Under the pieces are notes generated by a model. That model saw only the letters and a list, made by a program, of their open reading frames with translations, was not told the DNA's origin and ran no database searches. Position numbers and translations under genes: made by a program. A DNA stretch of 64,000 bases from Oceaniradius stylonematis (GTDB taxonomy: Bacteria > Pseudomonadota > Alphaproteobacteria > Rhizobiales > Rhizobiaceae). The DNA lies in NCBI RefSeq assembly GCF_003149475.2, contig NZ_QFWV02000006.1, positions 105,982-169,981 of the forward strand, written 5' to 3'. How positions within the stretch are numbered: position 1 is the stretch's first letter; every line of letters begins with the position of its first letter. Of the stretch, positions 53,908 to 64,000 are shown piece after piece.

Positions 53908-55157
53908 CGGTCGTCGTCCGCTTGATCGTCTTCGTCGGCGCGCGGGTTCATCGCGAGCGTTTCGGGCGTCGAGAAGCGCGCGGTCGGCATGCGCACATAG
54001 GCTCTGCGGATGGCGGCGGCCGCGCGCTGACGGATGCGCCAGATCGTAAAGCCGATAAGCATCGTGTGGGCCGCCGCGATCGTCATGAAAAGACCCTCGG
54101 GTCCGGCAAAGCCCATCACGCCGCCCGCGATCAGCGGCCCCGCGATCGAACCGATGCCGAACAGCAGCAGCAGCCCGCCCGACGTGCGCAGGAAGTCGTC
54201 CGCCGCCGCATGGTCGTTGGCGTGGCTGACCAGCAGCGGATACATGGTGTGGATGAACGCACCGAACAGGCCGGCTCCGATCAGGATCGGCATGGCGTCC
54301 CGGGGCGCCGCGACGATGAAATAGACAGAGGTCGCAACGGCCAGAACGCCCACGGCGATGAGCACATGGCGGCGGTCGGTCTTGTCGGACGCATAGCCGA
54401 CCGGCACCTGCGCCACCGCGCCAGCAATCAGGGTCGCCGACAGGAAGATGGCGATGGCGGTCACGCTCATGCCGATCGCGTTGCCATAGACGGCGGCCAG
54501 CGTGCCGAACGCCGAGTTGGCCATGCCGACGAGCACGATGCCGACGACGGCGACCGGCGAATTGCGCCACAATTTGGGAATATCGAGTGACACTTCGGTC
54601 AGCGGCTTTGGCTGCTGCGAGGCGTAAAGCGCCGTTGGGATCATCGCGAGCGCATAGAAGACGGCGCCGAGCACGAAGAATGTCTCCGCACCGGTGTCGC
54701 CGAGCGGCAGCACCATCTGGCCGATGGTGGTCGCGGTCAGGTTGACCATCGCATAGATGCCGAAAACGCGGCCGCGGCTGTCGGGGCCGGAACGCTCGTT
54801 CAGCCAGCTCTCCATGATCTGCTGGGCGCCGGCAAAGCAGAAGCCCGACAGCGCCCTGAGAGGAATCCATGCGGCCGGATGCATCAGCAACAGGGAAAGC
54901 AGGATCGCCACGCTTGCCAGCGCCGTCATCGCGCCGAACGAGCGGATATGGCCGACGCGCTTGACCGTGCGCGGCACGATCAGGCAGCCGAGCACGAAGC
55001 CGACCGCCCATCCCGTGCCCAGAAGCCCGAGCGAAAACGCCGAGAACCCTTCCTGAGCGCCGCGCACCGGCAGGATCAGCCCGTTGACGCCGCCGGCGAA
55101 CATCAGCGCCGATGCGCCGATCAGGAGCGGAGCGGTGGATTTGGGCAGGAGTGGCAT
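53904..55157 (-). CDS. MFS transporter, YcaD-like (paralogue 2)
   Basis: The ATG at 55157, with AAAGGAAATTG directly upstream, gives 417 residues and 12 membrane helices. LIVPRTVKRVGHIRSFGAM and FCFAGAQQIMESWLNERSG parallel the 44060-45301 protein, as do KLWRNSPVAVVGIVLVGMAN and the tail STPETLAMNPRADEDD. The two paralogues lie about 9 kb apart in the same orientation. Substrate unknown. Confidence 0.88.
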   Translation of the reverse strand: MPLLPKSTAPLLIGASALMFAGGVNGLILPVRGAQEGFSAFSLGLLGTGWAVGFVLGCLIVPRTVKRVGHIRSFGAMTALASVAILLSLLLMHPAAWIPLRALSGFCFAGAQQIMESWLNERSGPDSRGRVFGIYAMVNLTATTIGQMVLPLGDTGAETFFVLGAVFYALAMIPTALYASQQPKPLTEVSLDIPKLWRNSPVAVVGIVLVGMANSAFGTLAAVYGNAIGMSVTAIAIFLSATLIAGAVAQVPVGYASDKTDRRHVLIAVGVLAVATSVYFIVAAPRDAMPILIGAGLFGAFIHTMYPLLVSHANDHAAADDFLRTSGGLLLLFGIGSIAGPLIAGGVMGFAGPEGLFMTIAAAHTMLIGFTIWRIRQRAAAAIRRAYVRMPTARFSTPETLAMNPRADEDDQADDDR

Positions 55158-55533
55158 CAATTTCCTTTTGCCATCGTCTTGCCAGAACAGGGTGGACGAA
55201 AAACCAAGATCCCGTCGATGACGGGCTATGGTGCGGTGGCGCTGCATTGGCCGGCACGACAGACACCATAACCAAGAGATTTGCCAGATCTACCGCTTGT
55301 TTTGACTGCTCGCGCCACCTGTCGGCCGAATTCCCAAGGCCGAACGGGGCTCGCCCGACAGTCGATTGGCAGTCGGAATTCGATGACAATAAAAACGAAT
55401 CAACGGACAAGTTTTGGTCGAATTTTTGGTTGTCATATCTGCTTAATTTTAGGGATAATCATCGATCAATTTGCCAATCGATCAATTTTGTATATCATAT
55501 TCATTTCGTTTATTTCTATCCGGGAGGGTGCCG
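55158..55533. other. Gene-free stretch with an AT-rich half
   Basis: The first half has normal composition and should contain the MFS promoter. From about 55375 to 55520 the sequence becomes strongly AT-rich, with runs such as AATTTTTGGTTGTCATATCT, unlike the rest of the window. It leads into the orphan gene at 55534 and carries a 12-base direct repeat. No coding frame is supported. Confidence 0.6.
55461..55488. repeat. Direct repeat ATCGATCAATTT, two copies, 16-base period
   Basis: Identical 12-mers lie at 55461-55472 and 55477-55488, in the AT-rich leader 46 bases before the orphan gene start. Each contains the palindrome ATCGAT. They may be tandem regulator sites, but nothing identifies the regulator. 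Confidence 0.55.
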
Positions 55534-56103
55534 ATGTCTGAAGAGAATATCAAGAGAGTGCTCGGTGTAGCGGATTATGACGCCTACTGGATAGGCAAGT
55601 CATTATTGGTTCGGCTGACAGCGCGCGGTTTGCTGCCCTGCTTCAACTACACCGCACAATTGGAGCAGCGCCCCGAACGCGTCTCACCGCCCAACTGGAA
55701 CATGGTCTTCTATACGCCGGATGTTTGCATGACGGCCCTTCGTCCCTTCGAGGTAAGCGTGGTGATGTCCAATGTCGGTGGTGCCTCTTCACTGAGGGTT
55801 TTTGATGCAACGGGCGAGAACGAAGTGAAAATCCGCCACGAGTCCGACCGGGAGCAGACGACCAATCTGCAATCCGCGTTGGAGAAGGACCAGTTCGTGG
55901 TCCATGCCAGAGTGCCGAAGGGGGCTTCAGGCCACCATGGGTGCATCGTGGTTCCGGCCGACATGGTTGTATCCGCCATCTACTATCGGGCATACGGGCC
56001 GGCATCGAAAGCCGACTGCGATGCGTTCGTGGCCAAGAACTGTGATGTATCGATCACCGCCGGTGGGGAAATCCCTTGGCCGATGCTGACCGACGAACAG
56101 TGA
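55534..56103 (+). CDS. Orphan hypothetical protein
   Basis: The ATG at 55534 has CGGGAGGG upstream and gives 189 residues. It has no signal peptide or membrane segment. Visible stretches are NIKRVLGVADYDAYWIGKSL, RPERVSPPNWNMVFYTPDVC, RPFEVSVVMSNVGGASSLRV, and VPADMVVSAIYYRAYG near the end. A beta-rich fold is likely. Codon use is less GC-biased than that of its neighbours, and the leader is AT-rich; both fit recent acquisition. I do not recognise the family. Confidence 0.7.
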   Translation: MSEENIKRVLGVADYDAYWIGKSLLVRLTARGLLPCFNYTAQLEQRPERVSPPNWNMVFYTPDVCMTALRPFEVSVVMSNVGGASSLRVFDATGENEVKIRHESDREQTTNLQSALEKDQFVVHARVPKGASGHHGCIVVPADMVVSAIYYRAYGPASKADCDAFVAKNCDVSITAGGEIPWPMLTDEQ

Positions 56104-56178: not shown

Positions 56179-57699
56179 CTACTGAAACGCCGTCTCCGAG
56201 AAGCTTCTGAGTTTCCGCGAATGCAGCCGTTCGGGCGGCATCTGCGCCAGCTTCTCCATCGCCTTGATGCCGATGATCAGATGCTGGTTGACCTGCGTCC
56301 TGTAGAATTCGGTCGCCATGCCCGGCAGCTTGAGTTCGCCATGCAGCGGCTTGTCGGAGACGCACAAAAGCGTGCCGTAGGGCACGCGGAAGCGGAAGCC
56401 GTTGGCGGCGATCGTCGCCGATTCCATGTCGAGTGCAATCGAGCGTGACTGCGACAGCCGTTTGACCGGCCCGCGCTGGTCGCGCAGCTCCCAGTTGCGG
56501 TTGTCGATCGTGGCGACCGTGCCCGTGCGCATGATGCGTTTGAGATCGTAGCCCGAAAGGCCTGTCACCTCCGCCACCGCCTGTTCCAGCGCGACCTGAA
56601 CCTCGGCCAGCGGCGGCACCGGCACGGACAGCGGCAGATCGTCGTCGAGCACCGAATCCTCGCGCACATAGGCATGCGCCAGCACATAATCGCCCAGCTG
56701 CTGCGTGTTGCGCAGGCCCGCGCAATGGCCGAGCATCAGCCAGGCATGCGGGCGCAGCACCGCGATATGGTCGGTGATCGTCTTGGCGTTGGACGGGCCG
56801 ACGCCGATATTGACCATGGTGATGCCGGTGCGGTCCGGCCGCGTCAAATGATAGGTCGGCATTTGCGGCAGGCGCGATGGCGGTGCGCCGCTCTCCGGCT
56901 CGGCCGCGCCGGCGCGCGTCACCACATTGCCCGGCTCGACGAAACTCTGATAACCGGAATTGGTGTCGGCGATCTGCTCGCGCGCAAAGGCGCAGAACTC
57001 GTCGATGTAGAACTGGTAGTTGGTAAAAAGGACGAAGTTCTGGAAATGCCACGGGCTTGTCGCGGTGTAATGCGACAACCGGTGCAGCGAATAATCGACG
57101 CGCTGGGCGGTGAACGGGGCAAGCGGCGAGGGCTGGCCGGGCGCCGGTTCGAAGTCGCCGTTGGCGATGTCGTCATTGGTCACGTTCAGGTCCGGTACGT
57201 CGAACACGTCGCGCAGCGGACGCGCCAGCTGGTCGGCCTTGGCGCCATCGACATGGGTGCCTTCCAGGAACGCGAAGTGCAGCGGGATCGGCGTGCCCGA
57301 CTCCGACACCTCGACCGCCACACTATGGTTCTTCAGCAAGAGCCCGATCTGCGTTTCCAGATAGCTGCCGAACAGGTCGGGTCGGGTCACGGTGGTCGCG
57401 TAATGGCCCGGCTGGGCCAGATGGCCGTAGGCGAGCCGCGAATCCACCTGATTGTAGCTGGCCGTCCTGACCGAGAGCTGCGGATAATAGGCGCGCACGC
57501 GCCCCTCCAGATCGCCCTTGTCGGTCATCTCGGAAAACGCGTCGCGGATAAAGGCCGTGTTGCGCTCGTAAAGCGCGCGCAAGGCGGCAACCGCCTCGGC
57601 GGGATCGGTGTAGAAGGTGGGGCGCTCGGGCGGCGGGGTCAGAAACCCGGCACTGTCCTGGCCGGCCATGGGGTGTGATTCGTCTGTTCTCTTGTCCAT
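56179..57699 (-). CDS. amn: AMP nucleosidase
   Basis: The ATG at 57699 gives 506 residues, the family length; an ATG 10 codons later is possible. The N-terminal regulatory domain begins about residue 24. The C-terminal nucleoside phosphorylase-like domain has TGITMVNIGVGPSNAKTITD, PHAWLMLGHCAGLRNTQQLG, and a late VATIDNRNWELRDQRGPVKR, then LDMESATIAANGF, which carries the conserved Met-Glu-Ser of the ribose site. It splits AMP into adenine and ribose 5-phosphate. Confidence 0.93.
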   Translation of the reverse strand: MDKRTDESHPMAGQDSAGFLTPPPERPTFYTDPAEAVAALRALYERNTAFIRDAFSEMTDKGDLEGRVRAYYPQLSVRTASYNQVDSRLAYGHLAQPGHYATTVTRPDLFGSYLETQIGLLLKNHSVAVEVSESGTPIPLHFAFLEGTHVDGAKADQLARPLRDVFDVPDLNVTNDDIANGDFEPAPGQPSPLAPFTAQRVDYSLHRLSHYTATSPWHFQNFVLFTNYQFYIDEFCAFAREQIADTNSGYQSFVEPGNVVTRAGAAEPESGAPPSRLPQMPTYHLTRPDRTGITMVNIGVGPSNAKTITDHIAVLRPHAWLMLGHCAGLRNTQQLGDYVLAHAYVREDSVLDDDLPLSVPVPPLAEVQVALEQAVAEVTGLSGYDLKRIMRTGTVATIDNRNWELRDQRGPVKRLSQSRSIALDMESATIAANGFRFRVPYGTLLCVSDKPLHGELKLPGMATEFYRTQVNQHLIIGIKAMEKLAQMPPERLHSRKLRSFSETAFQ

Positions 57700-57767
57700 G
57701 CACAATCATATACGGCCAGATCATTGCGCGCAAAAGACGCAACGCGGCGATCTCTGGCCCGGTCGCG

Positions 57768-57950
57768 TCACGGCCGCATCAGGCTGACATAGAGGACGAA
57801 ACCCACGCCGTTTCCCTTGCGGGCGCCTTCGTCCGCCTGGGCGGCGGCGAAGCCGGCCAGCGGGCCGATGAACAAGGTGGCCAGAAGCGCGGCGCGTCCG
57901 AAGGCGCGAACAGTCTGAAAACGGCGGCGGTTTGTTGTGTGCATGGTCAT
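57768..57950 (-). CDS. Small exported hypothetical protein
   Basis: The ATG at 57950 (MTMHTTNRRRFQTVRAFGRA) gives 60 residues with a clear signal peptide (ALLATLFIGPLAGFAAAQAD). The mature peptide is only about 24 residues (GNGVGFVLYVSLMRP at its end). No family is recognised. It lies 17 bases downstream of another small membrane-protein gene on the same strand. Confidence 0.45.
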   Translation of the reverse strand: MTMHTTNRRRFQTVRAFGRAALLATLFIGPLAGFAAAQADEGARKGNGVGFVLYVSLMRP

Positions 57951-57967
57951 GGTCGGCCCCTGACGAG

Positions 57968-58135
57968 TTACTGGCGCGGGATGGCGCACACGCGCGGGCG
58001 CTCGAAGACGCACGGCACGGTCGATTGAATTTTCCAGGAATAGGCCGGCCCGCTGCTCTGCTCGATCAGGCTGATCAGCGCGAACGCGAAGATCATGGCG
58101 ATCAGGCAGATGATGATGAAGCGTCGTGCGAGCAT
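57968..58135 (-). CDS. Small single-pass membrane protein, hypothetical
   Basis: The ATG at 58135 with AGGGA upstream gives 55 residues. One membrane helix (FIIICLIAMIFAFALISLIE) is followed by a short tail with two Cys (STVPCVFERPRVCAI) that could form a disulfide outside the membrane. No family is recognised. It probably shares a transcript with the downstream 60-residue gene. Confidence 0.5.
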   Translation of the reverse strand: MLARRFIIICLIAMIFAFALISLIEQSSGPAYSWKIQSTVPCVFERPRVCAIPRQ

Positions 58136-58285
58136 CGGCTGTGTCCCTTTCCTGCCGCACACATTAGACAGGGGGCACTGAACCGGTGCTGAGGTCGCCA
58201 TTCATATGGCGTTCAGGGTCGTTAACGCGGCTTGCGCTTGGCGCGCGGCCGCCTATGTGCGTAGGCGACAGCACCGGAGGGACCC

Positions 58286-58993
58286 ATGCCGCAACAGACC
58301 GCACCGATCGAGCTATACTATTGGCCGACGCCCAATGGCTGGAAGATATCGATCATGCTGGAGGAACTGGGCGTGCCCTATCAGGTGCGCTACATCGACA
58401 TCGGCAAGGGCGAGCAGTTCGCGCCCGATTTCCTGAAGATCGCGCCCAACAACCGCATGCCCGCCATCATCGACCCGGAAGGCCCGGGCGGCGAGCCGAT
58501 CTCGGTGTTCGAGTCCGGCGCGATCCTGCAATATCTGGGCCGCAAGTTCGACCGCTTTTATCCCGCAGATCCGCGCGCGCGGACCGCCGTCGACGAGTGG
58601 CTGTTCTGGCAGATGGGCGGGCTGGGTCCGATGGCCGGCCAGGCGCATCATTTCCGCCAATATGCGCCCGAACAGGTGCCCTATGCGATCGACCGCTACA
58701 CCAATGAGGTCAACAGGCTCTATGGCGTGATGAACAGGCGCCTTGCCGACCGCGACTTCCTCGCCGGCGACTATTCGATCGCCGACATGGCGTGCATCGG
58801 CTGGGTCCTGCCCTACGAACGGCAGGGCCAGGATCTGGACGACTTCCCCAACCTCAAGCGCTGGTTCGACACGATGAATGCGCGGCCGGCGGTCGAGCGC
58901 GGCCTGGCGGTCGGACGCGAAAAGCGCGAGCAAACCAATCTGCGCGACGACAAGGAGGCGCAGAAGGTGCTGTTCGGCCAGCGCGCGCGCTGA
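58286..58993 (+). CDS. Glutathione S-transferase-like protein (YfcG/YghU group)
   Basis: The product is 235 residues with CCGGAGGGA before the ATG. The thioredoxin-like N-domain has LYYWPTPNGWKISIMLEELG, with Asn in the usual active-site position of the YfcG group, and the ESGAILQYL motif that binds the glutathione gamma-Glu. The helical C-domain has FLAGDYSIADMACIGWV. Homologues reduce disulfides with glutathione. It converges on the DUF2147 gene across a bidirectional hairpin. Confidence 0.88.
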   Translation: MPQQTAPIELYYWPTPNGWKISIMLEELGVPYQVRYIDIGKGEQFAPDFLKIAPNNRMPAIIDPEGPGGEPISVFESGAILQYLGRKFDRFYPADPRARTAVDEWLFWQMGGLGPMAGQAHHFRQYAPEQVPYAIDRYTNEVNRLYGVMNRRLADRDFLAGDYSIADMACIGWVLPYERQGQDLDDFPNLKRWFDTMNARPAVERGLAVGREKREQTNLRDDKEAQKVLFGQRAR

Positions 58994-58999
58994 CCATGG

Positions 59000-59026
59000 G
59001 GCCTCCCCGTCCGGTTCGGGGAGGCC
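59000..59026. terminator. Bidirectional hairpin between GST and DUF2147 genes
   Basis: GGCCTCCCC (59000-59008) and GGGGAGGCC (59018-59026) form a perfect 9-bp stem with a 9-base loop. It starts 7 bases after the GST stop, between convergent genes. No long T-run follows. Confidence 0.6.
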
Positions 59027-59038
59027 GATCGGGTCCGG

Positions 59039-59386
59039 TTACTGGCGTTTCCACGCCTCGGTCCGGCTTGTGATGGGAGTGCAAACACCAAAGCAACCTG
59101 TCATGTTGAGCGTGTTACCCGAAAGGCGGGCACGTCCCTTGTATTGGCGCCCTTCTGCCGGGTCGGTGATGTTGCCGACGTAGCGGTTGCCGCTGAGGGA
59201 GACGCGGCCAATCTGCTGGCCTGCATAGGTTCCGGTCTGAAGGGTGATGCAGAATGCACTCCCGCACTCCGCGATTCGCGCGGTTTCGCCGCTTCCTGTG
59301 CGCCAGGTGCCGACAATGGCGTCGGCAAGAGCGGGCGTTGCGGTCATGGTGACGGCGACCGCCAGCGCAAGCAGAGATGTCTTCAT
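59039..59386 (-). CDS. DUF2147 family exported protein
   Basis: The ATG at 59386 with GGGAGGAA upstream gives 115 residues. A signal peptide ends at about residue 22 (ATPALADA). The DUF2147 core is visible: IVGTWRTGSGETARIAECGS, FCITLQTG, the short YVGNITDPAEGRQYKGRARL version, and TLNMTGCFGVC. Four Cys are present. Family function is unknown. A LiuR-like inverted repeat lies 52-67 bases upstream. Confidence 0.85.
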   Translation of the reverse strand: MKTSLLALAVAVTMTATPALADAIVGTWRTGSGETARIAECGSAFCITLQTGTYAGQQIGRVSLSGNRYVGNITDPAEGRQYKGRARLSGNTLNMTGCFGVCTPITSRTEAWKRQ

Positions 59387-59437
59387 GAGGTTCCTCCCAA
59401 TCATGCACGGTTCAAGGACCGTTCGCGTGCACTATTA

Positions 59438-59453
59438 TTGACGCACACGTAAA
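59438..59453. promoter_or_regulatory. Inverted repeat TTGACG-CACA-CGTAAA upstream of DUF2147
   Basis: The arms TTGACG and CGTAAA differ from a perfect palindrome at one position. The site is like the one upstream of ETF-QO (TTGACG-TAAA-CGTCAA), with the same arm length and spacing. Its distance from the DUF2147 start suits a core-promoter operator. A shared regulator is inferred, not shown. Confidence 0.4.
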
Positions 59454-59629
59454 AGTAAACGGGTTTTGACGGGAGTCGGTAGCGTTCCGGCGGGCGGATC
59501 GGTCGCTTCATGGACCGGCAAAAACCGCGTCCCTCCCGCATCGACCCGCTGCCACGGTTAGCGATTGCTTTCCGCGCCAACTGTGAACGATGTGTGAAAA
59601 TCCCCGGTTTGCCAAGCAAAATCAGCTAT

Positions 59630-59657
59630 TTGACATGTTAACGCGCGGTTGAATTTA
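59630..59657 (+). promoter_or_regulatory. Candidate promoter with CtrA-like box upstream of the SEL1-like gene
   Basis: TTGACA (59630-59635) could be a -35, but the -10 position (ATTTAC) is weak. Inside the spacer, TTAA-N7-TTGA (59638-59652) is one mismatch from the CtrA consensus. It lies 150 bases upstream of the gene start. Both readings are tentative. Confidence 0.28.
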
Positions 59658-59800
59658 CCCCCTGTTTTTGTTTCGTTTGCGCGCCATTAAGGACACTTGT
59701 TTGCCAGCCGTTGAAGCCTTGCCGGCATCCTCCACCCATCAAAACGCCGGGACGACAAAGGGCTCGGGGACGAAACAGGGACACGCAATAGGGGGTCGAC

Positions 59801-60067
59801 ATGGCACGCCTTGAAATGGAAAACGCCGACTTTGCCGGGATGGGCGCCGGCGCCAACGCAGACATCTTGTTCGAGATGGGCCTGGCTTGCGCGACGGGCC
59901 GCAATGGCGACGCCGATCTGGTTGCCGCGCACAAATGGTTCAACATCGCGGCCATCAAGGGCTCGCCGCGAGCCGGCGCCCTGCGCGCCGAGATCGCCGA
60001 AACCATGAACAAGGCCGAACTGGCCAAGGCGCTGCGCGAAGCGCGTGAGTGGATGACCCGCCATTGA
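59801..60067 (+). CDS. Small SEL1-like repeat protein
   Basis: The product is 88 residues with AGGGGG before the ATG. One SEL1-like helical repeat is seen: LFEMGLACATGRNGDADLVA followed by AHKWFNIAAIKGSPRA, then a second helix pair (TMNKAELAKALREAREWM). Such repeats mediate protein contacts. The protein is cytosolic. A hairpin follows the stop after 8 bases. Confidence 0.75.
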   Translation: MARLEMENADFAGMGAGANADILFEMGLACATGRNGDADLVAAHKWFNIAAIKGSPRAGALRAEIAETMNKAELAKALREAREWMTRH

Positions 60068-60075
60068 GCGGTGGT

Positions 60076-60093
60076 GCCGGCCCGACGGCCGGC
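60076..60093 (+). terminator. Short hairpin after the SEL1-like gene
   Basis: GCCGGCC (60076-60082) and GGCCGGC (60087-60093) pair around a CGAC loop, 8 bases after the stop. TTCG follows, so the T-run is weak. Confidence 0.5.
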
Positions 60094-60169
60094 TTCGAAA
60101 AGACATCGGCGGGTGGGGCACCGGTTTGCGGGGGGCAAGCGACCGGTTGCAACGGGGGTTCCGCTGACA

Positions 60170-60206
60170 GGCCGCGCGCTCTTGGGGTGTGAGCGCGCGG
60201 CCTTCT
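60170..60206 (+). terminator. 12-bp perfect hairpin with T-rich tail
   Basis: GGCCGCGCGCTC (60170-60181) and GAGCGCGCGGCC (60191-60202) pair fully around a 9-base loop and are followed by TTCTT. It lies about 100 bases after the SEL1-like stop, on the edge of the lower-GC orphan gene block. It may insulate the plus-strand transcript from the convergent gene. Confidence 0.65.
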
Positions 60207-60271
60207 TGCTCATAAGGTCTCATAAATTGGCCGCAAGGAAGCGATTGGGTTTGTTTCCGGCGAACACGTGC

Positions 60272-61045
60272 TCAGAGAGCGATGTTCCAGAAATCCAGCA
60301 CGGCTTGCACCTGTTTTCGGGGATAGTGCGGACCGGCCTGTTCCAAGTCTCTCCGGATTGTCGCTTTTCGCTTGTCGGCGGCGTTCTTTATGCGATCTGA
60401 GAAGGGGACCGTCCCAGACGGCAAAGCCGGTTTATCTGGCTTGGGCCAACTGACCGGATAGTCATCCCAGTCGGACCAGCTTGCAATCTGCGCACCGGTG
60501 TTTGAAACGGCCTCGTGCTCGCATAACCAACCGTAAAGGTGAAGCGCGCAAACACGCAGCATCGTCTTTACCTCGATCATGGCATCGGTGAACGCCTTCA
60601 ACGGTGTTGGCAGCAACACCATGTTGGCAACGCAGGAAAAGAATCGATGATCCTGGACGACTTCGTTGGATGACTGATAGCGGTCGTCGTCCAAACCCCA
60701 GATATGGCAACATGACCAGTTTGGCCGCTGCTTTCCACGAAGGCCCAACGCCTTTGTCAGAGCCTTGTTAGCATTAATATTGCCTTCTGACTTATGGACG
60801 CTGAGCCCGGTCTGCCGATTGCGGTTCATCTGCGGCTCAGTCCAGTTTGACTTGTAGAACAGGGCTCGGCGGGCGTGCTCGGGATACCAAACCGGCAGAT
60901 AGGCAAAGGTCGCGGGATCAACCCATCGAGCCGTTTTCTCTATTAGATGCATTACTTCGGCCAGAGTTAACTCCTTGCGAAGAGCTTCAAGGCCGTCGGG
61001 CAAGCATTCAGCGGTTGCGACAGTCTTTCCGGCTCGCCTCGACAT
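60272..61045 (-). CDS. Orphan protein with HNH-like (His-Me finger) core
   Basis: The ATG at 61045, with AGGA 5 bases upstream, gives 257 residues. The middle part reads NWSCCHIWGLDDDRYQSSN, then VVQDHRFFSCVANMVLLPTP and LKAFTD. The order HxI, ~30 residues, N-M-V-L-L-P resembles the beta-beta-alpha metal core of HNH endonucleases (HHI...NLILL), although the last His/Asn is not clear. A helical C-terminal part follows (RKQVQAVLDFWNI). No methylase or immunity gene is adjacent. GC content is visibly lower than that of flanking genes, which suggests acquisition. Function is not established. Confidence 0.65.
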   Translation of the reverse strand: MSRRAGKTVATAECLPDGLEALRKELTLAEVMHLIEKTARWVDPATFAYLPVWYPEHARRALFYKSNWTEPQMNRNRQTGLSVHKSEGNINANKALTKALGLRGKQRPNWSCCHIWGLDDDRYQSSNEVVQDHRFFSCVANMVLLPTPLKAFTDAMIEVKTMLRVCALHLYGWLCEHEAVSNTGAQIASWSDWDDYPVSWPKPDKPALPSGTVPFSDRIKNAADKRKATIRRDLEQAGPHYPRKQVQAVLDFWNIAL

Positions 61046-61153
61046 CGTGATCCTAATCAAGCTTAGATTTGCGAACTGACCGGCCCAAAGAACTCGACTG
61101 CGTCTTCTACGGAAATCATAGCATGAAAGAGCTGAGTTTTATTACCGGTACCG

Positions 61154-61840
61154 TCAGTTCACGCCGACATAGCGGCCCGGCTTGTGGTTGACGCCCAGGA
61201 TCAGGTTGAACATCACCGCGCCGGCCACCGACCACACGATGCCCTGCCATCCGATGACGAGCGCGGCGCCGGCCAGGATCAGCGCGTCAATGCCGAGCTG
61301 GACATAGCCGGCGCGCATGCCGCGCGCCGATTGCAGCCAGTAGACCAGGATGTTGATGCCGCCGAGCCCCGCGCCGTGGCGGAACAGCGCCAGAAGCCCC
61401 AGCCCGATCATGATCCCGCCGATCAGCGCGGCAAACCCCGGCTCCAGCGTCTCGATGGTGATCAGAACCGGGTAGTAGCGTACCAGAACGCTCATCAGCG
61501 CGATGGCGCAGAACGTCTTGATCACGAACCGCCAGCCCATGCCGCGTACGGCCAGCGCGTAAAACGGCAGGTTGAGCGCAAAGAACAGGGCGGAGAAATC
61601 CAGCCCGGTCGCATAGGAGATGGTCAGCGCGATGCCGGCAACGCCGGAAACGACCAGTTCGGCCTGCTGGAACAGAAAGACGCCGAACGAGACCAGCGCC
61701 ACGCCGATCGAAATGGCGAAGATGTCCTCGGGCAGCGTGTGCCGGCTGGGCCGGATCATGATCATCGCCTGGCGGTCGGCTTCATCCGTGCTGTCGCCGT
61801 CCGGCTCCTGATGTGTATCGGTCACGCTGTCAGCATCCAT
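61154..61840 (-). CDS. YitT family membrane protein
   Basis: The product is 228 residues. A charged N-terminus of about 38 residues precedes five or six membrane helices: FAISIGVALVSFGVFLFQQA, SGVAGIALTISYATG, FSALFFALNLPFYALAV, and the HGAGLGGINILVYWLQ loop typical of YitT/DUF161. The usual C-terminal DUF2179 domain is absent. The substrate is unknown. An internal ATG at 61765 is an alternative start. Confidence 0.85.
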   Translation of the reverse strand: MDADSVTDTHQEPDGDSTDEADRQAMIMIRPSRHTLPEDIFAISIGVALVSFGVFLFQQAELVVSGVAGIALTISYATGLDFSALFFALNLPFYALAVRGMGWRFVIKTFCAIALMSVLVRYYPVLITIETLEPGFAALIGGIMIGLGLLALFRHGAGLGGINILVYWLQSARGMRAGYVQLGIDALILAGAALVIGWQGIVWSVAGAVMFNLILGVNHKPGRYVGVN

Positions 61841-61897
61841 GCTCGTGCCCGCCGAAGCCGGCCTTGAACCAAGCCCTCGCCGATTTGCCGTTTGCGA

Positions 61898-63010
61898 TCA
61901 AGCATCGCCGCGCGCTTGGGCAAGCGCTATCGGCAGCGTCGTGGCGAAATGCGCCAGCTCTTCAGGCCGGCCGACGCTGACGCGGATACACCGGTCGAGC
62001 ACCGGCGCCATCGGCTTGCGCACGAAAACCCCGCCGGCCATCAGCCCCTTCAGAACCGCCATGGCATGGTCGCCGTCGCGCCCGCAATCGAGCGTGACGA
62101 AATTGGTTGCCGAGGGCAGGGCGGTGAGCCCGTTGTCGCCCCCGATCCGCGCGATCTCGTCGCGGGCCGCCGCGATCTTGCCCAGCGTGCCGGCCAGCCA
62201 GTCGCGGTCGCCCAGCGAGGCGAGGGCGGCGGCCTGCGCCATCACGTTAACGCCGAAATGATCGCGCACCTTGTCGAACGGGGCGATCAGCGCCTTGGTG
62301 CCGAACGCATAGCCGCAGCGCAGGCCCGCCAGCCCATAGGCCTTTGAAAAAGTGCGCAGCCGGATCAGGTTGGGCCGTGCGGTGTTGATGGGCGGCAGCG
62401 TGCCCGCCGGCGCTGTCTCGCCATAGGCTTCGTCCAAAACGATCAGCGTTCGTTCGGGCACGGCATCGCAGAACGCGTCGATCGCGGCGGCGTCCCACCA
62501 TGTCCCCATCGGATTGTCCGGGTTGGAGACATAGACGATCGCCGCGTTTTCGGCGCGCGCCGTGGCGGCGAGCGCATCGAGGTCTTCCCGGTCGTCGCGA
62601 TAGGGCACGGTCGCCAGCCGACGGCCATAGCCAGCCACATGATAGTTGAAGGTCGGATAGGCGCCGAGCGAGGTGACGATTTTGTCGCCTTCGCGCGCAA
62701 AGATGCGCACGATAAGCCCGAGAAGACCGTCAATGCCCGGCCCGACGACGATCTCCTCCAAGGCGACGCCGAGACGGGTTGCCAGCGCCTCGCGCAGCGC
62801 CCAGCTTTCGGGGTCCGGATAGTTCCGGACCGCCTCGCGCGCCGCCCGGGCCATCGCCGCGGTCGCCGCCGGCGCCGCGCCGAAATTGCCCTCATTGGCG
62901 CCCAGCCGCGCCTCAAATGCCGTGCCGGTCTCGCGCTCGGTGCGCTCGGGCGCAACGAAAGGGATCGTCGCCGGCAGGGCATCGACGAGCGGATTGGGGT
63001 GTGGCGGCAT
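61898..63010 (-). CDS. PLP-dependent aminotransferase, histidinol-phosphate aminotransferase-like
   Basis: The ATG at 63010 with AGGAG upstream gives 370 residues. The fold type I sites are visible: RNYPDPESWALREALA, VYVSNPDNPMGTWW, Asp 193 and Tyr 196 in VLDEAYGE, the PLP lysine Lys 223 in RTFSKAYGLAGLRCGYA, and the C-terminal Arg in RCIRVSVGRPEE. HisC is the closest family; no other his genes are near, so it may be a second HisC-like enzyme or act on aromatic amino acids. Confidence 0.87.
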   Translation of the reverse strand: MPPHPNPLVDALPATIPFVAPERTERETGTAFEARLGANEGNFGAAPAATAAMARAAREAVRNYPDPESWALREALATRLGVALEEIVVGPGIDGLLGLIVRIFAREGDKIVTSLGAYPTFNYHVAGYGRRLATVPYRDDREDLDALAATARAENAAIVYVSNPDNPMGTWWDAAAIDAFCDAVPERTLIVLDEAYGETAPAGTLPPINTARPNLIRLRTFSKAYGLAGLRCGYAFGTKALIAPFDKVRDHFGVNVMAQAAALASLGDRDWLAGTLGKIAAARDEIARIGGDNGLTALPSATNFVTLDCGRDGDHAMAVLKGLMAGGVFVRKPMAPVLDRCIRVSVGRPEELAHFATTLPIALAQARGDA

Positions 63011-63283
63011 GGCTGGCGCTCCTGCGGGTCGGGTGGCGCCGCTGATAGCAGATTTTCGCGCCCCGGTAAGCGGGCGTTGCGCGGCTTGGTAAGCATCGGT
63101 CAGCGCTCCGTCACCACCTGTCCTTTGAGCCTGGAAGGCGGGGCGAGGGCGCCCGACAGAACCGATCGCGTCGGATTTGGCCAGCACCCGCCGGTTTGAT
63201 CCTGCCGCGCGCCGTGGCAGGCCGCACGAAACTGCATCGGGGGCGGTTGCAAAATCGCCGGAAATCCTCGAAAACGCCCGAAC

Positions 63284-63374
63284 GGAGAGGTGGCCGAGTG
63301 GTCGAAGGCGCTCCCCTGCTAAGGGAGTAGGCGGCAAAACCGTCTCGAGGGTTCGAATCCCTTCCTCTCCGCCA
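63284..63374 (+). tRNA. tRNA-Ser (anticodon GCT)
   Basis: The acceptor stem GGAGAGG (63284-63290) pairs with CCTCTCC (63364-63370), with discriminator G and an encoded CCA (63372-63374). The anticodon stem CTCCC/GGGAG encloses CTGCTAA, giving anticodon GCT (63318-63320) for AGC/AGU codons. A long variable arm (about 63326-63346) and the GGTTCGAATCC T-arm confirm a class II serine tRNA. Confidence 0.97.
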
Positions 63375-63987
63375 TTGTTTCGCTCACGCCAAGCTCATTG
63401 CGTTCGCTGGCTCCGCGGAGGCGGCCTGACCGGCCGGCGCACGGTCGTGCGCTTGCGGAGGCCGGGTTCGAAGTTTCTCCCGAACTCTCCGCCTCAGCCG
63501 CAGGCGGCATCGCTGCATCGCGCGAAACGGTGGATCGCGGCGCTTGGCTGCCGCGCAATCCGCTCGACAGTGCAGGCGCGTCCCGCGGCGCGGTCGCGAT
63601 CTTCCGCTTCGCGCCGGCAACCGGGTCCGTCGATCTCCATCAAACGTCCCGGATCGGGGGCTGCGTTGTCTGTGTTGCGTGACGCCGATGTTTGCATGGC
63701 GAAACCGATTGCCAGATTTCGATCCAAGACATATCATACCTTTTAAATACCAGTGAGCGGCGATTGACCGAAGACATGCCTCAAGACGGGTTCCGCGACG
63801 ATGTGACGGGCAGGGATGATCGCCGGCATCGCCGCGGCGCATTTTCCTTCCACTGCAGCCTGTCCGGCGATGCCGGCTCGACAGCCGCCCTCCACAGTTT
63901 CCGCCGCCAGCCGGCGGGCTCCATCTTCCCGCAGCACCTGGCGCCGCCGGCCCAAAGCGCTGCCGCCTGACCAAGGAGACGTCCAAC
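63375..63987. other. Unassigned stretch after tRNA-Ser
   Basis: Frames here are Arg-rich or low-complexity and look like chance openings in GC-rich DNA; none has a good ribosome-binding site with protein-like sequence. A short AT-rich patch (about 63700-63755) may be a promoter for the gene starting at 63988. A degenerate tRNA 3' end lies at 63464-63493. Confidence 0.5.
63464..63493 (+). repeat. Degenerate copy of the tRNA-Ser 3' end
   Basis: GGGTTCGAA (63464-63472) and CTCTCCGCC (63485-63493) repeat exactly two segments of the tRNA T-arm and acceptor end (63349-63357 and 63365-63373). They are 21 bases apart here, against 16 in the tRNA. It could be an old attachment-site remnant left by an element integrated at the tRNA. 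Chance is not excluded. Confidence 0.35.
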
Positions 63988-64000
63988 ATGCAGCCTGCCT
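63988..64000 (+). CDS. Start of a gene cut by the window end
   Basis: An ATG at 63988 has AAGGAG 9 bases upstream, a strong ribosome-binding site. Only four codons (Met-Gln-Pro-Ala) are visible, so no product can be named. Confidence 0.5.

Follow-up and report, generated by a model that had tools for sequence, protein, structure and literature searches.

A 64,000-nucleotide stretch of the Oceaniradius stylonematis genome, hereafter the window, carries a lone gene whose product looks in part like an HNH nuclease, and it raises the question of whether this gene is a working antiviral enzyme, the remnant of a defence system or cargo with some other role. Comparison of the gene with its relatives, their insertion sites and their neighbourhoods leads us to a reading that we regard as evenly balanced between right and wrong: the gene, an intact and horizontally acquired member of an HNH-like family, would act as stand-alone defence cargo, its product being a nuclease directed against foreign DNA. 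The arrival of the gene and the selection acting on its family can be read directly from the alignments; the chemistry of the protein and its target are argued below from residue patterns, predicted structure and genomic context.

A single-gene insert between host genes

The HNH-like gene starts at an ATG at 61045 and runs on the minus strand to 60272 (Table 1), exactly the open reading frame (ORF) proposed in the initial annotation, and it encodes 257 amino acids; an in-frame TTG at 61060 is an alternative start that would add 5 amino acids. The window genome (G000, 3.58 Mb) holds one copy, and a sigma-70-type scan detected no promoter-like site on the strand of the gene. On either side lie ordinary host genes, a small gene at 59801–60067 that is sel1-like by eye and unmatched in Pfam, and a gene of the YitT family at 61154–61840. 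GC content is 0.54–0.55 in the three 500-base intervals centred on the gene, compared with 0.57–0.71 in the remaining intervals from 57000 to 64000. A second low-GC stretch (0.50–0.56) lies at 55000–56000 of the window and includes a 210-amino-acid ORF (55471–56103) without a Pfam match.

Alignment of the flanks to other genomes of the genus defines the insertion. Where the window has 945 bp, the same-genus genomes G001, G003 and G004 have 29–32 bp, and in these three genomes only 164–177 bp separate the matches of the two flanking genes. The site is therefore empty in three of four same-genus genomes; the fourth, G002, has the left flank and an unmatched right flank and was left out of the comparison. 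The 945-bp foreign stretch carries the HNH-like gene alone, and the gene arrived by horizontal transfer as a single-gene insertion. Neither a clear target-site duplication nor a clear mobile-element end was found at the insert boundaries. The initial description of a solitary gene of lower GC is borne out. The strong hairpin said to bound the gene does exist, with perfect arms, but it lies outside the insert: it also occurs in G001 and G004 and, in varied form, in G003, all three of which lack the gene, so it is host DNA.

Table 1. Positions, in the window, of the HNH-like gene, its candidate site residues and the insert
Feature	Position	Strand	Basis
HNH-like gene, 257 aa	60272..61045	-	ORF and relatives
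CHIW, residues 113-116; H114, candidate catalytic His	60698..60709	-	invariant in 40 of 40 rows
N141, Asn of HNH-like motif	60623..60625	-	invariant in alignment, kept in distant rows
K150, N+9 position	60596..60598	-	Lys in 90% or more of rows; distant branch has Ala
D154, Asp at N+13	60584..60586	-	invariant; spacing equals that of TagI metal ligand Asp258
Insert, approximate extent, 945 bp	60205..61149	.	flank alignment to three same-genus genomes
Hairpin, 13-bp perfect arms, host terminator-like, outside insert	60169..60203	.	flank alignment

A conserved and mobile protein family

Relatives of the window protein come from 31 loci of species genomes, from 28 viral contigs and from 3 plasmids, with some DNA counted both as genome locus and as viral contig (L013 and L047, for instance). 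Their identities are 46–75%, apart from one plasmid relative that matches at 36% over the core. Named hosts are mostly Alphaproteobacteria, and one locus (L021) belongs to an Acidobacterium. The family is sparsely distributed among the collections searched: 100 relatives gave no match, 50,697 phage records gave none, and a profile search of 385 genomes of the class matched four, covering most of the length in G000 and G366 and the core only in G360 and G133. The pattern CHIW...N..LLP likewise occurs in 3 of 398 genomes of the phylum, G000 among them, and in 26 viral stretches, every one from a contig already found by similarity. Profile A2 recovered the identical 28 viral contigs; the distant protein P0002, used as a query, had no match among the viral contigs and one extra weak match among plasmids, to a Methylorubrum megaplasmid, without annotation.

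An alignment of 40 rows holds C113, H114, I115, W116, D119, D120, D132, C138, N141, D154, Y171, W173, C175 and H177 invariant and K150 nearly so, and the family also shares a conserved amino-terminal part (about residues 17–100) and carboxy-terminal part (about residues 190–253). In the distant proteins P0002 and L067, CHIW is retained along with both the Asn and the Asp, and Ala replaces K150. Across 28 close pairs of relatives (dS 0.05–0.8) the median dN/dS is 0.09, a value that refers to the relatives, as pairs that include the window copy have dS at or near saturation; selection among the relatives is strong. A decaying remnant, a possibility akin to one that the initial annotation had considered, was rejected given the intact ORF and this dN/dS of about 0.09 in a family that is conserved and mobile. 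Two other origins were also rejected. Flanks that vary between loci argue against a homing endonuclease, and recent capture from the sampled prophages does not agree with a midpoint-rooted tree in which the window protein branches outside them, with support of only 86/48.

A putative HNH-like site with lysine at the helix position

The core that had drawn attention to the protein is present as described, with CHIW at residues 113–116 and VANMVLLP at residues 139–146, and its His and Asn are conserved throughout the homologues. Of the features that mark the HNH superfamily, sequence and model together place the candidate His, H114, at the end of the first predicted strand and N141 before the second, and the third His or Asn expected on the helix at N+9 is replaced by K150. 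The initial annotation was correct that no clear third HNH residue exists, but it overlooked the invariant D154 at N+13. The full-length model has a mean pLDDT of 81.6, with 65–77 over residues 111–140, and predicts a strand at 110–112 directly before H114, a second strand at 143–146 after N141, and a helix at 147–155 that would carry both K150 and D154; this predicted order of elements is in line with a beta-beta-alpha-metal fold. The core-only model disagrees: it is predicted to be helical with strands absent, at a pLDDT of 55, a confidence below use for fold search.

Profile and fold comparisons did not place the protein in a named family. Pfam, PADLOC-DB 2.0.0 and NCBIfam returned no family for the window protein, and Pfam over 40 members returned no HNH model, with nothing above the curated cut-off for HNH_2 (PF13391) or HNH (PF01844) and a single chance-level hit in one member. 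Local hhalign comparison with alignments of HNH_2 and HNH, which a motif filter limited to 15 HNH_2 loci and 29 HNH loci out of 30 each, gave less than 1%. PHROGs had nothing for the window protein, and for two homologues its only matches, both to a single 49-position family, had E values of 0.64 and 0.074. A sequence profile search of the PDB gave no matches, Foldseek against PDB and BFVD gave none at E ≤ 0.001 (two BFVD rows named HNH stood at E values of 6.1 and 8.1), and a second look at the model with VIA gave none with Z ≥ 2. Nor did any of these searches confidently match the protein to a fold other than that of a nuclease.

The closest parallel is in residue spacing. In TagI, an SRA-HNH endonuclease of solved structure (PMC6212794), the HNH site consists of H229, N245, the metal-binding H254 at N+9 and D258 at N+13, and D258 acts as a metal ligand because Ala, a non-acidic residue, precedes the His. 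The residue preceding H114 in the window protein is Cys113, so that the two proteins share a His at a strand end, an Asn, an Asp at N+13 and a non-acidic residue before the His. They differ in that the window protein has no recognised SRA domain and no visible CxxC knuckle, has Lys150 where TagI has His254, and separates its His and Asn by 27 residues instead of 16; the likeness is one of spacing, with no sequence or profile similarity shown. By analogy, D154 may substitute for the helix His as a metal ligand. The order His, Asn, helix also resembles HNH_2 and HNH, and P0002 and L067 have by eye an HNH_2-like layout (HIWP ... NLVLLP ... LTD), whereas the replaced third ligand and the profile results just given set the family apart from both. 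From the invariant His, Asn and Asp we infer nuclease chemistry and a metal site, and overall the window protein is probably an HNH-like nuclease, as first suggested.

Optional cargo upstream of terminase in prophages

Many relatives occupy one position in one family of prophages. The gene order there, with families named from locus L040, is RuvC-like, N6/N4 methyltransferase, often C5 methyltransferase, DUF7220, the HNH-like gene and DUF3489 on the opposite strand, followed by the terminase small and large subunits. In a survey of the DUF7220–DUF3489 slot, 88 loci had both flanks, and the slot was empty (24–79 bp) at 30, held the HNH-like gene at 38 and held other sequence of 312–1067 bp at 20; these counts, like the carrier counts below, are not frequencies, because some contigs are counted twice (L028, L048 and L233, for instance) and loci, among them most of the 38, were selected for having the gene. 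When contigs were instead anchored on terminase, 2 of the 39 that had at least 5 kb upstream, among the best 80 of at least 598, carried the HNH-like gene. Empty and otherwise filled slots identify the gene as optional cargo and not a phage core gene.

The other cargo shares the DUF7220–DUF3489 interval with the HNH-like gene and belongs to different Pfam families or to none. It includes ParE (tested at L265, with L228 and L237 alike by eye and a Phd-like ORF, also by eye, beside it), PF01844 HNH proteins (tested at L245, with L249 and L262 alike by eye), DUF2726 at L211 and DUF3223 at L239. Six tested cargo proteins had no Pfam match, and no convincing gene is visible in three of these 20 slots (L224, L263 and L269; 312–342 bp). 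The interval (L198–L269 and L002–L060) is in its own right a cargo hotspot in alphaproteobacterial prophages. Its Pfam-less proteins of 187–239 amino acids, at L206:4751–5389, L240:4682–5398, L225:4713–5351, L232:4584–5276 and L252:4834–5394, are possibly undescribed accessory or defence genes.

Defence genes near family members

Beyond the terminase-slot prophages, relatives are found beside known defence genes. At L022 a CoiA-like gene lies upstream of the HNH-like gene, and PADLOC matches to Aga_REase, a short-Argonaute partner, and pAgo lie immediately downstream; the annotated order on plasmid L061 is CoiA, HNH-like gene, DUF4365 and a hypothetical gene. DUF4365-type/pAgo pairs such as that at L022 are, we take it, what is named SPARDA. 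Shedu SduA is directly upstream of the HNH-like gene at L020, with an HNH_2 protein farther up. That locus also shows a compact co-directional run (L020:3111–6729) of the HNH_2 protein, an unmatched 194-amino-acid protein, Shedu SduA and the HNH-like gene. Other copies lie near GajA/GajB (Gabija) and a type IIG-like gene (L009), a type III methyltransferase with a helicase of weak similarity (2e-9) to type III restriction enzymes (L017), type I M and S genes (L031), a type IIG enzyme (L021), what contig position suggests is a type I methyltransferase (L032) and a type II-like methyltransferase (L024).

We compared 17 loci outside the terminase-slot prophage family with control regions of arbitrary chromosome. 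L006 (on a short contig, with the gene at its edge), the distant L063, the window, and L023 and L061 (same context as L022) were left out of the test set, and 15 of 17 control regions were used, L292 and L287 (one ORF) being omitted. At least 8 of the 17 loci have defence genes nearby, as does 1 of the 15 control regions (P = 0.014, one-sided Fisher test). L024, which adjoins a terminase-like gene, stayed in the test set; its removal leaves 7 loci (P = 0.030). Neither P value is corrected for our having chosen this test after the first neighbours were seen. Eight is a minimum, because 25 of the 58 PADLOC families matched at the test loci were among the matches listed; the other 9 loci yielded no identified defence gene. 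Islands in general may account for part of the excess, since the controls are arbitrary chromosome and not mobile islands. At an E value of 1e-40, 58 PADLOC families matched among 144 proteins at the test loci and 1 among 139 control proteins, a figure for the loci that is inflated by related PADLOC models; UzuA is among the test-set hits. The suggested link with defence gains support from these contexts of the family; the window copy itself adjoins ordinary host genes and has no methyltransferase beside it. Elsewhere in the window genome, an ORF cluster at L108 (contig C16, 430000–443000) contains a C5 methyltransferase together with ORFs that by eye are Vsr-like, GIY-YIG-like, HSP90-type ATPase-like and DEAD-helicase-like, and is perhaps a defence cluster of this genome.

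Alternative explanations

Four other accounts of the family deserve weighing against stand-alone defence cargo. The protein could be a non-nuclease, either DNA-binding or regulatory cargo or an HNH descendant that no longer cleaves and only binds. K150 and the Ala variant at the helix ligand, the failed profile and fold matches and the predicted helical core-only model all fit this account, which we nevertheless consider rather unlikely, as invariant H114, N141 and D154, with strong selection among relatives, do not resemble a catalytic site in decay. Cleavage of modified-base DNA by a modification-dependent, type IV-like nuclease is unlikely, although solitary loci such as that of the window, without a cognate methyltransferase, would suit it and the N+13 Asp spacing is that of modification-dependent TagI (PMC6212794). 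Pfam recognises no reader domain in 40 members, although a reader of an unrecognised type may be present, and the prophages that harbour the gene have N6/N4 methyltransferases and in most cases C5 ones as well, so that N6/N4 and C5 marks are unlikely triggers unless the nuclease is held back.

The prophage setting invites two further accounts. As a packaging or replication helper, such as an HNH protein that works with terminase, the gene would have solitary chromosomal copies only as by-products. Its position about 1.5–2.4 kb upstream of the large terminase gene agrees with such a role, as does the L024 copy, which adjoins a terminase-like gene of another type, identified by eye; copies on plasmids and near defence genes do not. 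We rejected this account as decidedly improbable because close prophages manage without the gene, which is missing from 37 of the 39 contigs drawn from the best 80 of at least 598. A phage-borne restriction–modification pair, with the protein as restriction endonuclease and a neighbouring methyltransferase as its partner, is very improbable. Among the 28 carriers with sufficient sequence upstream, a count in which some contigs recur, a C5 methyltransferase lies upstream in 21 and an N6/N4 methyltransferase in all 28, but the same enzymes occur at 24 and 34, respectively, of the 34 loci with empty or other slots. A C5 partner is unlikely, being missing from 7 of the 28 carriers and present in 24 of the 34 non-carriers; the window copy has no adjoining methyltransferase, and the sole C5 enzyme found in G000 is on another contig, within a dissimilar cluster. 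With constant C5 pairing not observed and solitary copies in existence, an obligate methyltransferase partner was rejected.

Discussion

Stand-alone defence cargo is the reading that we prefer for the window gene. In this mechanism the gene would act alone, Lys150 would replace the usual helix His of the HNH site, and the amino-terminal (about residues 17–100) and carboxy-terminal (about residues 190–253) parts would determine target choice, with invading DNA as the probable target. From the company that family members keep we infer action against rival phages or plasmids. Replacement of a metal ligand by Lys could also mean that cleavage is lost. More tentatively, and with somewhat less confidence than we place in the defence role, the family may constitute an undescribed group of stand-alone nucleases against mobile elements, with a rewired His-Asn-Lys-Asp site, carried as interchangeable cargo by prophages, plasmids and defence islands and active after single-gene insertion. 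In the portions available of the literature on HNH defence islands, modification-dependent HNH enzymes, SPARDA (cf. PMC10810196) and Rhodobacter/Paracoccus prophage hotspots the family is not described, and the available portions of the prophage literature contained no mention of DUF3489.

If this reading is true, the family would represent a compact one-gene defence effector that is absent from the profile libraries searched, and the DUF7220–DUF3489 slot upstream of terminase would be a source of more cargo genes. The Lys-for-His change would likewise probe how far the HNH metal site tolerates substitution under strong, family-wide selection.
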